From positions 310,001 to 374,000 of the forward strand of contig NZ_QBKT01000006.1 of assembly GCF_003054265.1 (NCBI RefSeq): DNA of 64,000 nt, in the 5' to 3' direction. The first letter of the stretch is position 1, and the number at the start of each line of letters is the position of its first letter. Source of the stretch: Kordia periserrulae. Its GTDB lineage: Bacteria; Bacteroidota; Bacteroidia; Flavobacteriales; Flavobacteriaceae. This document shows positions 38,655 to 45,834 of the stretch, piece by piece. The notes under the pieces were generated by a model. It ran no database searches. It was not told the DNA's origin and saw nothing but the letters and a program-made list of their open reading frames with translations. Both the position numbers and the translations under genes were made by a program.

Positions 38655-40121
38655 ATGGGAAAAATAACAGGATTTATGGAGTACAAACGTCAAGATGAAA
38701 CGTATGAAGCTCCTGCAAAACGTATTAAAAACTATAAAGAATTTACCATTGCTCTTGAAAAATCAACACTAGAAGAACAAGGTGCGCGCTGTATGGATTG
38801 TGGGATTCCGTTTTGTCACAGCGGCTGTCCACTCGGAAACTTAATTCCAGACTTCAATGACAAAGTCTATCGTGGAAAATGGAAAGAAGCAGCTGAAATT
38901 TTACATGCTACCAATAACTTCCCCGAATTTACAGGTCGTTTGTGTCCTGCGCCGTGTGAAGAAGCCTGTGTGTTGGGAATTAACGAAGATCCGGTAAGTA
39001 TTGAAAACATTGAAAAAAATATTGTAGAAACCGCTTTTGCGGAAGGTTGGATTGTGGCAAAACCACCTAAAAAACGAACAGGAAAATCGGTTGCAGTTGT
39101 AGGCTCTGGTCCCGCGGGATTGGCAGCGGCACAACAACTCAACCGTGCTGGTCATGCCGTCACTGTTTTTGAACGTGATGAAAAAGTAGGCGGATTGTTG
39201 CGCTACGGAATTCCCGATTTTAAGATGGAAAAGCATGTTATCGACCGTCGTTTGGCTATTTTAGAAGCAGAAGGAATCACGTTTACAACCAATGCGCATG
39301 TGGGTGTCACTATAGATACGAATCAGCTTAAAGAAGAATTTGATGCGATTTTACTTTGTGGCGGCGCAACAGTACGAAGGAACATTCCGATTGACGGAGC
39401 AGACGCGAAAGGCGTTCACCAAGCGATGGATTTCCTCAAACTAAACAATCAATACGTAGATGGTTTGGTTGATTTTGAAGACATCATTTCTGCGAAAGAC
39501 AAAAAAGTCATTGTCATTGGTGGCGGCGATACAGGCTCGGATTGTATTGGGACGAGCAATCGTCATGGCGCAACATCGGTAACAAACTTTGAAATATTGA
39601 GCAAACCAACAGTTGGACGTCCTGCGCATCAACCGTGGCCGTATTGGCCGATGAAACTAAAAACGACATCTTCACATCAAGAAGGTGTGGAACGTCATTT
39701 TAGCATTTCGACGGAAAAATTCATCAAAGATGCCAACGGAAACCTTACGGGATTAAAAACGGTTGAGGTTGAATGGATCTATGAAGAAGGCAAACGCCCG
39801 ACACTCAAAAAAATTCCAAATACGGAAAAAATTTGGGAATGCGATTTAGTACTATTAGCGTTAGGTTTCACAGGCGCAGAAAAAACATTGGCAGAAGCTT
39901 TTGATATAGACATGGATTTCAGAACTAACATCAAAGCAACCACAAAAAATTACGCTACCAACAAAGACGGAATCTTCGTTGCTGGCGACATGCGCAGAGG
40001 ACAATCGTTAATCGTTTGGGCAATTTCCGAAGGTCGTCAAGCCGCGCATCATGTGGACAACTATTTAATGGGAAGTTCTAATTTACCGTTGAAGGATGAT
40101 AATGATTTGCCGAGAATATAA
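38655..40121 (+). CDS. gltD: Glutamate synthase, small subunit
   Basis: A 488-residue subunit that transfers electrons from NAD(P)H to GltB. The N-terminal cysteine clusters are CMDCGIPFCHSGCP near residue 40 and CPAPCEEAC near 94. The FAD-binding motif GSGPAGLAAA lies near 150 and the NAD(P)-binding motif GGGDTGSD near 289. It forms the gltBD operon just upstream of the ilv leader region, and could supply glutamate for the IlvE reaction. Confidence 0.96.
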   Translation: MGKITGFMEYKRQDETYEAPAKRIKNYKEFTIALEKSTLEEQGARCMDCGIPFCHSGCPLGNLIPDFNDKVYRGKWKEAAEILHATNNFPEFTGRLCPAPCEEACVLGINEDPVSIENIEKNIVETAFAEGWIVAKPPKKRTGKSVAVVGSGPAGLAAAQQLNRAGHAVTVFERDEKVGGLLRYGIPDFKMEKHVIDRRLAILEAEGITFTTNAHVGVTIDTNQLKEEFDAILLCGGATVRRNIPIDGADAKGVHQAMDFLKLNNQYVDGLVDFEDIISAKDKKVIVIGGGDTGSDCIGTSNRHGATSVTNFEILSKPTVGRPAHQPWPYWPMKLKTTSSHQEGVERHFSISTEKFIKDANGNLTGLKTVEVEWIYEEGKRPTLKKIPNTEKIWECDLVLLALGFTGAEKTLAEAFDIDMDFRTNIKATTKNYATNKDGIFVAGDMRRGQSLIVWAISEGRQAAHHVDNYLMGSSNLPLKDDNDLPRI

Positions 40122-40134
40122 AGTCAAATCAAGT

Positions 40135-40160
40135 GTCACATTGAGCGCAGTCGAAATGGC
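40135..40160. repeat. Dispersed repeat, gagcgcagtcga family
   Basis: Copy with sequence gtcacattGAGCGCAGTCGAaatgg just after gltD. The hairpin is imperfect, and a second copy lies at 40427-40454 between the two attenuators. Confidence 0.65.
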
Positions 40161-40259
40161 TATGAAGTTTAAATCTCCCTGCAACCACAGGAAAAACAAA
40201 ACATTTTTTCAAAAACGATTAGGAATCTTAAAAAACTTTTTCAATATTTGATACAACAA

Positions 40260-40322
40260 ATGAACAAGCAACCACAAAATATCATTGTCATTAGCATTAT
40301 TGTGATTCAGTCACAACGATGA
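40260..40322 (+). CDS. ilv leader peptide 1
   Basis: A 20-codon frame, MNKQPQNIIVISIIVIQSQR, with six Ile and two Val codons and no Leu. The bias matches the end products of the downstream ilv operon. Its stop codon overlaps the sequence AGGAATGC (40322-40329), which can pair with the 5' arm of the next terminator, so ribosome stalling at the Ile/Val codons would free that sequence to form an antiterminator. Sequence and arrangement are seen directly; the function is inferred by analogy with enterobacterial amino-acid attenuators. Confidence 0.72.
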   Translation: MNKQPQNIIVISIIVIQSQR

Positions 40323-40366
40323 GGAATGCCATGCTATTTTCACTATAAAAATTTCAAAGCCTTCCT
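40322..40366 (+). promoter_or_regulatory. Attenuator 1 antiterminator pairing
   Basis: AGGAATGC at 40322-40329 can pair with GCCTTCCT at 40359-40366 (seven of eight positions). This would replace the terminator stem that uses the same GCCTTCC arm. Confidence 0.55.
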
Positions 40367-40385
40367 ACATCGGGAAGGCTTTTTC
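40356..40385 (+). terminator. Attenuator 1 terminator
   Basis: A 10-bp perfect stem AAAGCCTTCC/GGAAGGCTTT (40356-40365 with 40373-40382), a 7-nt loop and a T run to 40384. It lies 34 nt after the leader peptide 1 stop. Confidence 0.82.
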
Positions 40386-40426: not shown

Positions 40427-40454
40427 TGTCACATTGAGCGCAGTCGAAATAGAC
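40427..40454. repeat. Dispersed repeat between the two attenuators
   Basis: Second copy of gtcacattgagcgcagtcgaaat in this leader region, nearly identical over 23 nt to 40135-40157. The two copies flank attenuator 1, which suggests how the unit may have been duplicated or could be lost. Confidence 0.65.
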
Positions 40455-40480
40455 AAAAAATGTATCGAGAATAGTCTTTC

Positions 40481-40522
40481 AAACAACAAACAACAAACAA
40501 CAAACAACAAACAACGAACAAC
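40481..40522. repeat. Heptanucleotide tandem repeat
   Basis: Five perfect copies of AAACAAC (40481-40515) and one variant GAACAAC (40516-40522) end 15 nt before the leader peptide 2 start. The tract has no G on the coding strand except the variant and is therefore unstructured; it may help ribosome loading or vary in length by slippage. Confidence 0.85.
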
Positions 40523-40537
40523 GAAAAAACACACAAC

Positions 40538-40591
40538 ATGAACAAAACCATCATCAGCATCATCGTCATTATTATCATGAACTCTTCTTGA
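40538..40591 (+). CDS. ilv leader peptide 2
   Basis: A 17-codon frame, MNKTIISIIVIIIMNSS, with seven Ile codons and one Val, again no Leu. Both leaders start with Met-Asn-Lys after a CA-rich, G-poor upstream sequence. The stop is followed at once by GTTGGTA (40592-40598), able to pair with part of the following terminator. Ile/Val-poor conditions would stall the ribosome within the II-S-II-V-III run and leave this element free. Sequence evidence is direct, regulation is inferred. Confidence 0.78.
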   Translation: MNKTIISIIVIIIMNSS

Positions 40592-40632
40592 GTTGGTACG
40601 ATGTGCTGTATAAAACAAAAGCCTGTATCAAC
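40592..40632 (+). promoter_or_regulatory. Attenuator 2 antiterminator pairing
   Basis: GTTGGTA at 40592-40598 pairs with TATCAAC at 40626-40632 (seven pairs, one G-T). The second element is the end of the terminator's 5' arm plus its loop, so the two foldings exclude each other. Confidence 0.55.
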
Positions 40633-40648
40633 CGCGATACAGGCTTTT
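40617..40648 (+). terminator. Attenuator 2 terminator
   Basis: A 13-bp perfect stem AAAAGCCTGTATC/GATACAGGCTTTT (40617-40629 with 40636-40648), 6-nt loop AACCGC, then more T residues (TATTTTTT). Confidence 0.88.
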
Positions 40649-40884
40649 ATTTTTTAAAGAGAAAAATCCGAAAAACAAACAACACTTCGGCTAGCTCAGC
40701 GTAAACAAATAACGAAAAACACTATAAAAAACACCAAGTTGAACATTGTAGTAAAAAAATCATAAAAAACTGAAAAACAGATAATTAACAAAAATAAATA
40801 ACAATTGATTTTAGGTAAAAAATCAAAACCAAACACACAAAAAAGTAGGAATACAATTAATTTCGAATCATAATCACACTAAAA
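40649..40884. other. Untranslated stretch between attenuator 2 and ilvE
   Basis: A 236-nt, A-rich region with no gene. A 'cttcggctagctcagc' motif at about 40686-40701 resembles another flavobacterial dispersed repeat. The rest is CA/A-rich and likely unstructured. Confidence 0.45.
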
Positions 40885-41778
40885 ATGTATTATACAAACG
40901 ACAGTATCATCTATCACAACGGCGCATTTCTGCATCCAGAAACGGCGTCTGCCAACCTATACAGTCAAACGTTGCACTACGGAAATGGCGTATTTGAAGG
41001 CATCCGTTCGTACAAAACCAAATTCGGCGCAAAAATTTTTAAAGCCGCTGGACATTACGAACGCCTAAAATATGGTGCCCAAGTCATGGGAATTCCATGT
41101 AATTACACAGTAGAGGAATTGGTAAATATCACATATCAACTACTAGAAAAAAACAATCTCGAAGATGCGTATATCAGACCTATTTTGACCACAGGCGCTA
41201 ATATGAGTCTGTTAACGTCTGACGAATCCATACTAACCATCCAATGTTGGGAATGGGGAAAATACATGGGCGACAAACTTTTACGCGTAAAAACCTCTCG
41301 CTTTGAACGTCCCAATCCGAAATCCTGCTTTGTAGAAGCAAAAATCACAGGACATTACACAAATTCCATTCTATCCACAAACGAAGCAAAAAGTGCAGGA
41401 TACGATGAAGCATTATTGTTAGACATGAACGGAAATGTAGCAGAATGTTCGGGCGCCAATGTATTTATGGAAAAAGACGGCAAACTCTACACGCCAAAAC
41501 GCGGACACATCATGCCAGGAATTACGCGTACTACGATTATCGAAATTTGTAAAGAGGAAGGTTTTTCAGTAGAAGAAAAAGACTTTACACTTGCCGAACT
41601 AAAACAAGCAGACAGCGCCTTTTTTACGGGAACAGCGGCAGAAGTTGTCGGATTACAATCGTTAGATGACTATAAATTTCCACTTTCGTGGGAAGCGTCT
41701 CTCGGTTACAAACTCATGCAACTCTACAAACAAGAAGTATTGTGCGAACGCAACAGCAAACTCTCTGAAGCAATCTAA
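40885..41778 (+). CDS. ilvE: Branched-chain-amino-acid aminotransferase
   Basis: A 297-residue fold-type IV PLP enzyme that moves an amino group between glutamate and the branched-chain 2-oxo acids, the last step of Ile, Val and Leu synthesis. The PLP lysine is probably K153 in EAKITGHYTNS. The phosphate and carboxylate binding regions YGNGVFEGIRSY and GTAAEV are present. It is the first gene of the ilvEDBNCA operon, and follows the attenuator region. Confidence 0.94.
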   Translation: MYYTNDSIIYHNGAFLHPETASANLYSQTLHYGNGVFEGIRSYKTKFGAKIFKAAGHYERLKYGAQVMGIPCNYTVEELVNITYQLLEKNNLEDAYIRPILTTGANMSLLTSDESILTIQCWEWGKYMGDKLLRVKTSRFERPNPKSCFVEAKITGHYTNSILSTNEAKSAGYDEALLLDMNGNVAECSGANVFMEKDGKLYTPKRGHIMPGITRTTIIEICKEEGFSVEEKDFTLAELKQADSAFFTGTAAEVVGLQSLDDYKFPLSWEASLGYKLMQLYKQEVLCERNSKLSEAI

Positions 41779-43573: not shown

Positions 43574-45304
43574 ATGGAAACAAAAACCATACAAGAAACA
43601 CAAACACAACCAACAACAGAACGACTCACAGGAAGCGAAGCCATTGTACGTTGTTTGTTAGCAGAAGGTGTAAAAACGCTATATGGCTATCCTGGCGGCG
43701 CTATCATGCCAGTATATGACGAGCTATACAAATACCAAGATAAAATTCATCATGTGCTAACGCGTCATGAACAAGGCGCAACACATGCTGCACAAGGATA
43801 TGCGCGCATTTCTGGTGAAGTCGGAGTTGCTATTGCTACTTCAGGTCCAGGAGCTACCAATCTCATCACGGGAATTGCCGATGCGCAAATCGATTCGACG
43901 CCGTTGGTATGTATTACGGGACAAGTTGCCTCGCATTTGTTGGGAAGTGATGCGTTTCAAGAAACGGATATTGTGGGCATTTCTACGCCAGTGACCAAAT
44001 GGAATCACCAAATTACGAAAGCTTCTGAAATTCCAGAAGTCATCGCAAAAGCATTTTACATAGCAAAAAGTGGACGTCCAGGACCTGTGTTGATTGATAT
44101 TACGAAAGATGCACAATTTGAAGAATTTGATTTTTCATATCAAAAATGTACGGCAGTTCGCAGTTACAAAGCAGTGCCAGAAGTAGATGAAACCTCGTTA
44201 AATGCTGCTGCAGAAATCATCAATGCAGCAAAAAAACCGTTAGTCGTTTGGGGTCAAGGCGTGATTTTAGGTAAAGCGGAAGCTGAATTTAAAGCTTTCA
44301 TTGAAAAAGCAGGTATTCCTTCAGCTTGGACAATTTTAGGTGTTTCAGCCATTCCAACAGAACATCCACTCAATGTCGGAATGGTAGGAATGCACGGAAA
44401 CTATGCGCCAAACAAACTCACCAATGAATGCGATGTGTTAATTGCTATCGGAATGCGTTTTGACGATCGCGTTACAGGAAACTTAGCCACGTATGCCAAA
44501 CAAGCAAAAGTCATTCATTTTGAAATTGATCCTGCGGAAGTAGACAAAAATGTAAAAACGGATGTAGCTGTTTTGGGTGATGCAAAAGTGAATCTGACAA
44601 AAATTCTGCCACTTATCCAGAAAAAAGAACATTCAGCTTGGCGACGTGCGTTTGACGATTTATACGCGATTGAATACGAAAAAGTCATCAAAAATGATTT
44701 GTATCCAACCAAAGAAGGATTGACCATGGGCGAAGTGTTAAAGGAAATCAACAACCAAAGCAACGGCGAAGCAGCGATTGTTTCGGATGTTGGTCAGCAT
44801 CAAATGATTGCCTGTCGTTATGCCAATTTCAAACAGACAAAAAGCAATATTACTTCGGGCGGATTGGGAACGATGGGATTTGGCTTGCCAGCCGCTATTG
44901 GCGCAAAAATGGCAGCGCCTGAGCGTGAAGTAGTTTGTATTTGTGGCGATGGCGGTTACCAAATGACCATTCAGGAATTGGGAACTATTTTTCAGCAAAA
45001 AGCCGCGGTGAAAATTGTGGTGTTGAATAATGATTTCTTGGGAATGGTGCGACAGTGGCAACAACTGTTTTTTGACAAACGTTATGCTTCTACCGAAATG
45101 ACTAACCCTGATTTTGTAGCGATTGCCAAAGGTTACTACTTAAACGCACGTCGCGTCACAAAAAGAGACGAATTAGCGGAAGCAGTACAAGAAATGATGG
45201 AAAGTAAAGAAGCGTACTTTTTAGAAGTATGTGTAGAAAAAGAAGACAACGTATTTCCAATGATTCCAACAGGAGCATCGGTTTCAGACATAAGATTAGC
45301 GTAA
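43574..45304 (+). CDS. ilvB: Acetolactate synthase, large subunit
   Basis: A 576-residue ThDP- and FAD-dependent enzyme that makes acetolactate or acetohydroxybutyrate. The N-terminal ThDP Glu is in TRHEQGATHAAQG near residue 63, and the ThDP/Mg motif GDGGYQMTIQELGTI...NND lies near 460-490. The VRQWQ region involved in substrate choice is also present. The regulatory subunit follows after 2 nt. Confidence 0.95.
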   Translation: METKTIQETQTQPTTERLTGSEAIVRCLLAEGVKTLYGYPGGAIMPVYDELYKYQDKIHHVLTRHEQGATHAAQGYARISGEVGVAIATSGPGATNLITGIADAQIDSTPLVCITGQVASHLLGSDAFQETDIVGISTPVTKWNHQITKASEIPEVIAKAFYIAKSGRPGPVLIDITKDAQFEEFDFSYQKCTAVRSYKAVPEVDETSLNAAAEIINAAKKPLVVWGQGVILGKAEAEFKAFIEKAGIPSAWTILGVSAIPTEHPLNVGMVGMHGNYAPNKLTNECDVLIAIGMRFDDRVTGNLATYAKQAKVIHFEIDPAEVDKNVKTDVAVLGDAKVNLTKILPLIQKKEHSAWRRAFDDLYAIEYEKVIKNDLYPTKEGLTMGEVLKEINNQSNGEAAIVSDVGQHQMIACRYANFKQTKSNITSGGLGTMGFGLPAAIGAKMAAPEREVVCICGDGGYQMTIQELGTIFQQKAAVKIVVLNNDFLGMVRQWQQLFFDKRYASTEMTNPDFVAIAKGYYLNARRVTKRDELAEAVQEMMESKEAYFLEVCVEKEDNVFPMIPTGASVSDIRLA

Positions 45305-45306
45305 TT

Positions 45307-45834
45307 ATGGAACAAGAAAGCAAACTATTTACGGTTTCGGTATACACCGAAAATAACATCGGATTATTGAACAGAATCTCTGCGATTTTTCAGCGAAGAC
45401 ATATCAATATTGAAAGTATCAACTCGTCGGTTTCTGAAATTGAAAACGTATCTAAATGGACGATTGTAGTCAATCTCGCGGAAGCGCAAATGAAAAAAAT
45501 CATCGGGCAAATAGAGAAGCAAGTTGAGGTCATTAAAGCGTATTATCACACGGAAGAAGAAATCATTTATCAGGAATCGTGCATTTTCAAAATGAAATCA
45601 GATTTGTTGTTTGATGAACGACAAATCCAAAACATCATCAAAGACAGCAATGCGCGAATCGTTACGGTAAACAAACAATTTTTTGTCATTGAAAAATCGG
45701 GACGCAAAGATGAAATCGAATTGCTATACCGAGAACTCAGTGTATTTGGTATTATGCAATTTACACGTTCGGGACGTATTGCAGTTTCTAAAGAGGAAAT
45801 GAAGATATCTGAGATACTTGCGGTTCTTGAGTGA
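45307..45834 (+). CDS. ilvN: Acetolactate synthase, small subunit
   Basis: A 175-residue regulatory subunit with an N-terminal ACT domain (FTVSVYTENNIGLLNRISAIF, residues 7-80) that normally binds valine for feedback inhibition, followed by a ferredoxin-like second domain. The ATG at 45307 is the natural start, 2 nt after ilvB, so the two subunits are translationally coupled. A longer frame from 45229 is an overlap artefact. Confidence 0.93.
   Translation: MEQESKLFTVSVYTENNIGLLNRISAIFQRRHINIESINSSVSEIENVSKWTIVVNLAEAQMKKIIGQIEKQVEVIKAYYHTEEEIIYQESCIFKMKSDLLFDERQIQNIIKDSNARIVTVNKQFFVIEKSGRKDEIELLYRELSVFGIMQFTRSGRIAVSKEEMKISEILAVLE

Follow-up and report, generated by a model that had tools for sequence, protein, structure and literature searches.

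The ilvEDBNCA operon of the marine bacterium Kordia appears to be headed by two leader-peptide attenuators placed in series, and the second of them (unit 2) is, with good probability, a complete ribosome-mediated transcription attenuator in its own right. Comparison among relatives supports the predicted presence of both units, the three stems drawn for each, their fixed order and the lack of a promoter immediately 5' of unit 2.

Organization of the ilv leader

The window (by which we mean the whole stretch of 64,000 nt analysed) comes from Kordia, a genus in which 10 of 11 genomes gave ilvE matches, 82-100% identical and with its own genome included; the closest named records were also Kordia. 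The genes run in the order gltB, gltD (ending at 40121 on the same strand), the two attenuator units, ilvE, ilvD, ilvB, ilvN, ilvC and ilvA. ilvE and the ORFs 3' of ilvD were named from their translations, the latter reading as ilvB (43574), ilvN (45229-45834), ilvC (45959) and ilvA (47703). Both units, which share one design, sit between gltD and ilvE (Table 1).

Table 1. Predicted features of the ilv leader and the first genes of the operon (positions in the window)
Feature	Position	Strand	Sequence or pairing	Remarks
Promoter P1	40219..40250	+	TTAG 40219-40222 (-33 region); AATATTTG 40243-40250 (-7 box)	
Leader peptide 1	40260..40322	+	MNKQPQNIIVISIIVIQSQR	20 aa in all 11 Kordia
Protector hairpin 1	40295-40321	+	CATTATTGTGA 40295-40305 / TCACAACGATG 40311-40321	Covariation over 37 loci; folds
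Antiterminator 1	40318-40371	+	GATGAGGAATGC 40318-40329 with GCCTTCCTACATC 40359-40371, mismatches present	Shuffles, covariation
Terminator 1	40356-40382	+	Stem AAAGCCTTCC/GGAAGGCTTT	11 pairs
Leader peptide 2	40538..40591	+	MNKTIISIIVIIIMNSS	ATG 40538, stop TGA 40589-40591
Protector hairpin 2	40580-40594	+	AACTC 40580-40584 / GAGTT 40590-40594	Covariation over 35 loci
Antiterminator 2	40592-40632	+	GUUGGUAC = GTTGGTAC 40592-40599 with GUAUCAAC = GTATCAAC 40625-40632	
Terminator 2	40617-40648	+	Stem AAAAGCCTGTATC/GATACAGGCTTTT	13 pairs, loop 6, then ATTTTTT
Element A-D	40739..40865	+	TTGAACATTGTA 40739-40750 to TAATTTCG 40858-40865	Possible second promoter/operator
ilvE	40885..41778	+		First structural gene of the operon; ORF list
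ilvD ORF	start 41782	+		Identity by PF00920 match

The original prediction had described a second Ile/Val attenuator at this place, and its leader, antiterminator and terminator were all found after a complete unit 1 (40260-40382), with the 278-nt offset between the two leader ATGs (40260 and 40538) and the 13 terminator pairs that it had given. The antiterminator does begin right after the stop of leader 2, as claimed, but by eye it comprises 8 bp with one G.U and not 7. Protector hairpin 2, which competes with antiterminator 2, was absent from that earlier description. In both units the protector is placed where the leader ORF ends and shares nucleotides with the 5' arm of the antiterminator. 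Taken together, the parts found are an Ile/Val-rich short ORF, an intrinsic terminator, an antiterminator that excludes it, a protector within the leader ORF, and control codons spaced from the antiterminator arm by about the footprint of a ribosome. Over the two units of 36 tandem loci (11 from Kordia and 25 of Tenacibaculum type, i.e., 24 Tenacibaculum records plus L049) the last Ile/Val codon and the antiterminator arm were 11-16 nt apart in 65 of 72 units, and 6-8, 17 or 19 nt apart in the other 7. In leader 2 of the window the last Val lies 9 nt farther from the antiterminator than the last Ile, and for this reason unit 2 may here be mainly an Ile sensor.

A chance origin of the units was ruled out by a scan of the window, by reverse-strand controls and by covariation (see below). 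On the forward strand exactly two of six terminators in the window were preceded by an ORF with at least 6 Ile/Val per 10 residues, and these two were the units; none of the four on the reverse strand had such an ORF, and with a laxer threshold (4 of 10) two of the four did, both being the same two hairpins read in reverse. Across loci, the reverse-strand control gave 3 matches in 118, and a laxer version found an Ile/Val leader at 10 of 67 reverse terminators vs. 72 of 92 forward ones.

Evidence for the stems among relatives

The stems of unit 2 were examined in an alignment of relatives from 35 loci and those of unit 1 in one from 37 of 39 listed loci (L126 and L160 were omitted). Protector 2 was paired in 91.0% of cells vs. 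75.8% after shuffling, with 38 two-sided changes vs. 15.4, and at most 54% in slid controls; such comparisons have to be read bearing in mind that kinship alone can beat shuffles without any structure, and that slid controls retain relatedness. Terminator 2 was paired in 97.6% of cells and had 16 two-sided changes vs. 3.1. For antiterminator 2, with 95.9% of cells paired vs. 22-42% when slid, the pair-keeping changes were all to G.U and there were no two-sided changes in the 35-locus alignment, as one would expect where the terminator uses the same arm; shuffling the 3' letters was without effect, since that arm hardly varies. In unit 1 the values were 77.9% vs. 71.7% for the protector (40 two-sided changes vs. 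19.6), 87.6% vs. 83.1% for the antiterminator (10 vs. 4.2) and 93.5% vs. 90.4% for the terminator. The two-sided changes of antiterminator 1 were all in its outermost pair, and terminator 1 is not their cause because the 3' partner of this pair lies in the terminator loop. Covariation or pair-keeping changes thus support the three kinds of predicted stem.

Folding energies gave a more uneven picture. Antiterminator 2 of the window has -12.3 kcal/mol and is moderately better than shuffled (7 of 200 shuffles were as good); in the other Kordia genomes 0-1 of 200 shuffles did as well for 9 of 10 copies, the remaining one (L014) having 22 of 200. None of 200 shuffles equalled antiterminator 1 of the window, and several unit 1 antiterminators of Tenacibaculum were no stronger than shuffles (e.g., 63 of 200 in L020 and 74 of 200 in L024). 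Protector 2 was not clearly more stable than shuffles in Kordia (z from -2.0 to 0.2).

Two independent units

The claim that the two units are independent was borne out: each type is conserved alone and each spacer prefers the terminator arm of its own unit. For spacer 1 the terminator arm of its own unit was a better partner than that of the other unit in all 11 Kordia and in 23 of the 25 Tenacibaculum-type loci; for spacer 2 this was so in every locus (11 of 11 and 25 of 25). We likewise agree that the second unit is not a recent copy of the first; a recent duplication was ruled out by the separate conservation of type 1 and type 2. Searched against the whole genome, each covariance model gave a single strong match, at the ilv leader (69.4 and 76.5 bits), and the next non-overlapping matches reached 37.2 and 37.5 bits. 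When matches of any kind are counted, those that follow did not exceed 42 bits, and the first among these was the mirror image of terminator 2; by the covariance models there are no further strong copies elsewhere in the genome.

Distribution in the Flavobacteriaceae

Both units were present in all 11 Kordia genomes, and in the 10 with an ilvE match they lie before ilvE. The other Kordia genome (G003, locus L093) has no ilvE match at the cut-off between gltD and ilvD, and both units are kept before ilvD. In Tenacibaculum, 24 of 25 records had both units by our heuristic and L027 by the covariance models. Three Winogradskyella records have unit 1 only, with its stem ending 14-17 nt before ilvE.

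The family was represented by 249 genomes, 47 of them without an ilvD match at the cut-off, and by 169 genera with a match; upstream stretches were obtained from 119 of these, reduced to 118 because L156 was too short. Five listed places were dropped (G085, G188, G061, G067 and G024), most of them close to a contig end. With one genome per genus and a cut-off of 40 bits, the covariance models placed both types in 17 of the 118 genera other than Kordia and Tenacibaculum, type 1 only in 20, type 2 only in 24 and neither in 57; these counts are among the matches listed, second genomes per genus and weaker ilvD matches having been left out, the models had been trained on many of the surveyed loci, whose membership is by construction, and the 57 include three loci (L182, L196 and L199) with a heuristic unit and no model match of 40 bits. 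Other flavobacterial ilv operons, where the original prediction had proposed to look for one or two units, hold examples of both. In all 17 tandem genera of the survey type 1 precedes type 2.

Ile/Val-rich leaders accompany most of the elements that only the models found; those of L157 (type 1; 5 Ile/Val per 10), L217 (5) and L235 (4) are weaker. In L187 both elements scored nearly alike with either model (45-48 bits), so that their types are unsure. In L175 the type 1 element lies ca. 1000-1080 nt and the type 2 element ca. 200-290 nt before ilvD, with ca. 700 nt separating them, and a search for a short leader ORF in this type 2 element found none. Two loci from outside the family, L052 (Melioribacteraceae) and L060 (Fluviicola), had two units with lower model scores. 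Heuristic units in L065 and L068-L070 turned out to be C-termini of upstream genes and that of L056 was doubtful; none of these was used.

On an ilvD tree of 90 rows, made by a quick method and with 35 of 87 inner branches open, at least 4 of the 14 changes required by the tandem rows are forced by starred branches; whether the pair is ancestral or was gained repeatedly is left unsettled by this tree.

The same distribution bears on the proposal that unit 1 is merely the terminator of the upstream gltBD operon, with ilvE regulated by unit 2 alone. The position would suit it, gltD being on the same strand and ending ca. 140 nt before leader 1, but unit 1 comes with a promoter box and a leader of its own and with alternative stems that covary, and it is the sole unit in the three Winogradskyella records (before ilvE) and in the 20 surveyed genera with type 1 only (before ilvE or ilvD). 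We regard this explanation as hardly credible.

Promoters and the order of the units

Flavobacterial promoters have the form TAnnTTTG, with G at -5 (PMC6847099). With this spacing the predicted start in P1 of the window is 40255, leaving a predicted 5' UTR of 5 nt for leader 1. A -7-like box is found 8-10 nt 5' of leader 1 in all 11 Kordia, and a block resembling P1 also in Tenacibaculum and Winogradskyella. We took the best-scoring -7 box (at least 5 of 6) within 12 nt of the leader ATG, and found one at 82 of 93 first or sole leaders (Kordia 11 of 11, Tenacibaculum type 24 of 25, other tandem 9 of 9, sole type 1 23 of 26, sole type 2 15 of 22) vs. 1 of 45 second leaders (1 of 11, 0 of 25 and 0 of 9 for Kordia, Tenacibaculum type and others). 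The contrast rests on the position of the box, because shuffled sequences often have one of score 5 somewhere in the 45 nt (0.07-0.47). This tally predates the model classes and omits antiterminator duplexes weaker than -7 kcal/mol (L126 and the first unit of L160), and four sole units of neither type, with a box in three, stand outside it. When L157, L160 and L184 are refiled as second units following the covariance models, the figures become 81 of 90 and 2 of 48, the added second-unit box (L184) falling within the T run of terminator 1.

A type 2 unit thus usually seems to have its own promoter when alone, with the box 3-8 nt from the leader in those 15 of 22, and to be without one behind a type 1 unit. 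For some sole type 2 units, among them L163, L168, L173 and L176, 4-5 nt separate the end of the -7 box from the ATG, and the mRNA of their leader peptide should therefore be leaderless or nearly so. Bacteroidota have been described as lacking Shine-Dalgarno sequences (PMC6847099).

Two arrangements of the pair were weighed. One would be parallel, each attenuator having its own promoter and unit 2 guarding a start site between the units. The distance between the units of Kordia (37-318 nt) would accommodate a promoter in most cases, and a box of score 5 does occur at 18 of 25 Tenacibaculum-type second leaders, but 24-33 nt upstream, where terminator 1 lies. We find this arrangement very improbable given that the near box is usually present in sole type 2 units and is missing precisely behind a first unit, and that in Tenacibaculum-type loci the gap from terminator 1 to leader 2 is just 12-23 nt. 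The other arrangement, which we prefer, is in series: the missing near box and these short gaps indicate that unit 2 is probably transcribed by polymerases that have read through unit 1. The two attenuators in series that had been foreseen are in keeping with these box positions and with type 1 coming first throughout.

A conserved element before ilvE

A further conserved element (A-D) stands 3' of unit 2 and 5' of ilvE, with consensus TTGAACAT / TTGAacATcaTA ... TAATTT[CA]Ga, the first and last motifs being ca. 118 nt apart. When only spacings of 116-121 nt were searched, 34 of 131 sequences matched (29 at 118, 4 at 119 and 1 at 120); without a spacing limit, and taking the last match, 117 or 118 was found in 14 of 38 pattern matches and the rest were scattered. 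The spacing is 118-120 in all 11 Kordia, and a strict-pattern search of the genome returned one copy, the known one. The near-constant length with little conservation in between suggests a protein-DNA element. A TGA..TCA-like palindrome lies inside it.

The last part of the element resembles a -7 box with one deviation from TAnnTTTG, and the element may act as a second promoter downstream of both units, in which case some ilvE mRNA would escape both attenuators. Taken further, the element could be the main ilv promoter, with most ilvE mRNA free of attenuators and the P1 transcript minor or made only in starvation. This would be compatible with the attenuators acting in series, and it draws on the conservation of the element at near-constant spacing in Flavobacteriaceae genera both with and without attenuators, and on the start that the box of the window predicts 15 nt before ilvE. 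On the other side, the deviation of the box is at one fixed position, the element was not seen in the Winogradskyella sequences, and both attenuators are intact in every Kordia genome, suggesting that P1 matters. On balance we hold a dominant role of this element to be unlikely, if clearly less so than a parallel arrangement.

Proposed mechanism

Transcription would start at P1, ca. 5 nt before leader 1 as judged from the -7 box. A ribosome finishing the leader would rest on the stop codon and cover the 5' arm of the antiterminator, allowing the terminator to form. Stalling 11-16 nt upstream, at Ile (or Val) codons for want of charged tRNA, is a step taken from the classical attenuation mechanism; a ribosome stopped there would cover the 5' arm of the protector and leave the antiterminator arm free, and RNA polymerase would continue. 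After terminator 1 a second ribosome would have to load on leader 2 and stall before terminator 2 is passed. The output of P1 would then approximate the product of two read-through probabilities, so that less would leak through and the response to one signal would be steeper; the stalling, the read-through values and the product rule are inferred.

The original prediction had the two units multiplying repression, which is a fair inference for transcripts from P1 and would not extend to those from the possible promoter near ilvE. It had also suggested that shortage of both Ile and Val could be needed, and this we cannot follow: both leaders carry Ile and Val codons, and because both hold Ile codons a shortage of Ile alone should stall ribosomes on both and open both units.

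Relation to known systems

Leader-peptide attenuators are classical in the trp, his and ilvGMEDA operons of E. coli. The Kordia units resemble them in the short leader rich in codons for the product of the operon and in the mutually exclusive protector, antiterminator and terminator, and differ in that the leader would have two complete units unrelated in sequence and a predicted 5' UTR of 5 nt. T-boxes work without a ribosome, by direct binding of tRNA, and in this they differ from what we propose. Within the window there was no Rfam match at the gathering score and none to the T-box; leader families remained below their gathering cut-offs (Thr_leader 31.5 vs. 55, His_leader 23.6 vs. 49 and Phe_leader 28.9 vs. 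55 bits), and membership of a known Rfam family was rejected.

Tandem arrangements have precedents. Tandem T-boxes described before ilv operons of another phylum, the Bacillota (PMC12452182), are likewise two sensors of tRNA charging in series before ilv genes. The mgtCBR leader of Salmonella, as described, also has two leader ORFs in series within one mRNA leader, forming tandem attenuators with additive action; these respond to two signals, ATP and proline, through stems unlike intrinsic terminators (PMC3641672), whereas in Kordia one signal and two intrinsic terminators are predicted. Tandem riboswitches, e.g., those for TPP, are described as two independent one-ligand switches with a steeper response, called pseudo-cooperative (PMC9481103); the logic is the same, but the ligand is a small molecule and there is no leader peptide. 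In Flavobacterium psychrophilum, of the same family as Kordia, there are clues for leader-peptide attenuation likewise upstream of amino-acid operons (PMC9723704); "ilv" is absent from the main text of that article and its attenuation section names no tandem case. Attenuation by leader peptides, attenuators in tandem and, on ilv genes, tandem T-boxes are thus already known, and what appears to be new is the series of two ribosome-mediated attenuators for the same signal, of which we found no report in the open-licence literature searched.

A broader proposal, to which we give slightly less than even credence, is that Flavobacteriaceae evolved this same-signal pair as an old arrangement in type 1-type 2 order, with halves lost variously and a sharper ilv response than one attenuator would give, unit 2 of Kordia leaning to Ile and unit 1 to Ile plus Val. 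If true, it would be a counterpart, based on ribosomes and translation, of pseudo-cooperative tandem riboswitches and tandem T-boxes, and the ilv genes should switch on more sharply when Ile or Val is short. A natural and conserved pair of this kind would make the gain from doubling measurable by removing either half, and related genera, some with type 1 alone, some with type 2 alone and some with both, could be compared. It would also provide two well-defined families of ilv attenuators for the Bacteroidota, where our searches found little on attenuation.

Codon usage and repeats in the leader region

In the Tenacibaculum-type loci (L019-L051) ATA accounted for 0 of 193 Ile codons in leader 1 and 11 of 166 in leader 2, vs. 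92 of 360 in the ilvE genes; Kordia showed no such avoidance (7 of 73 and 12 of 80 vs. 38 of 440 in ten genes of the window), and all these counts are from related sequences, hence not independent.

Kordia leaders also contain repeats. In the window a 24-nt repeat, TGTCACATTGAGCGCAGTCGAAAT, has identical copies at 40134-40157 and 40427-40450, one 5' of each unit, and several other Kordia spacers have longer repeats with a CCCGCTGAAGAGCGGGAT-like hairpin. This region gathers repeats, and both units nonetheless stay intact. Directly 5' of leader 2, in an A-rich start region, there is a tandem repeat of CAAACAA type (40480-40525), which is also found 5' of leader 2 in two other loci (L016 and L017).
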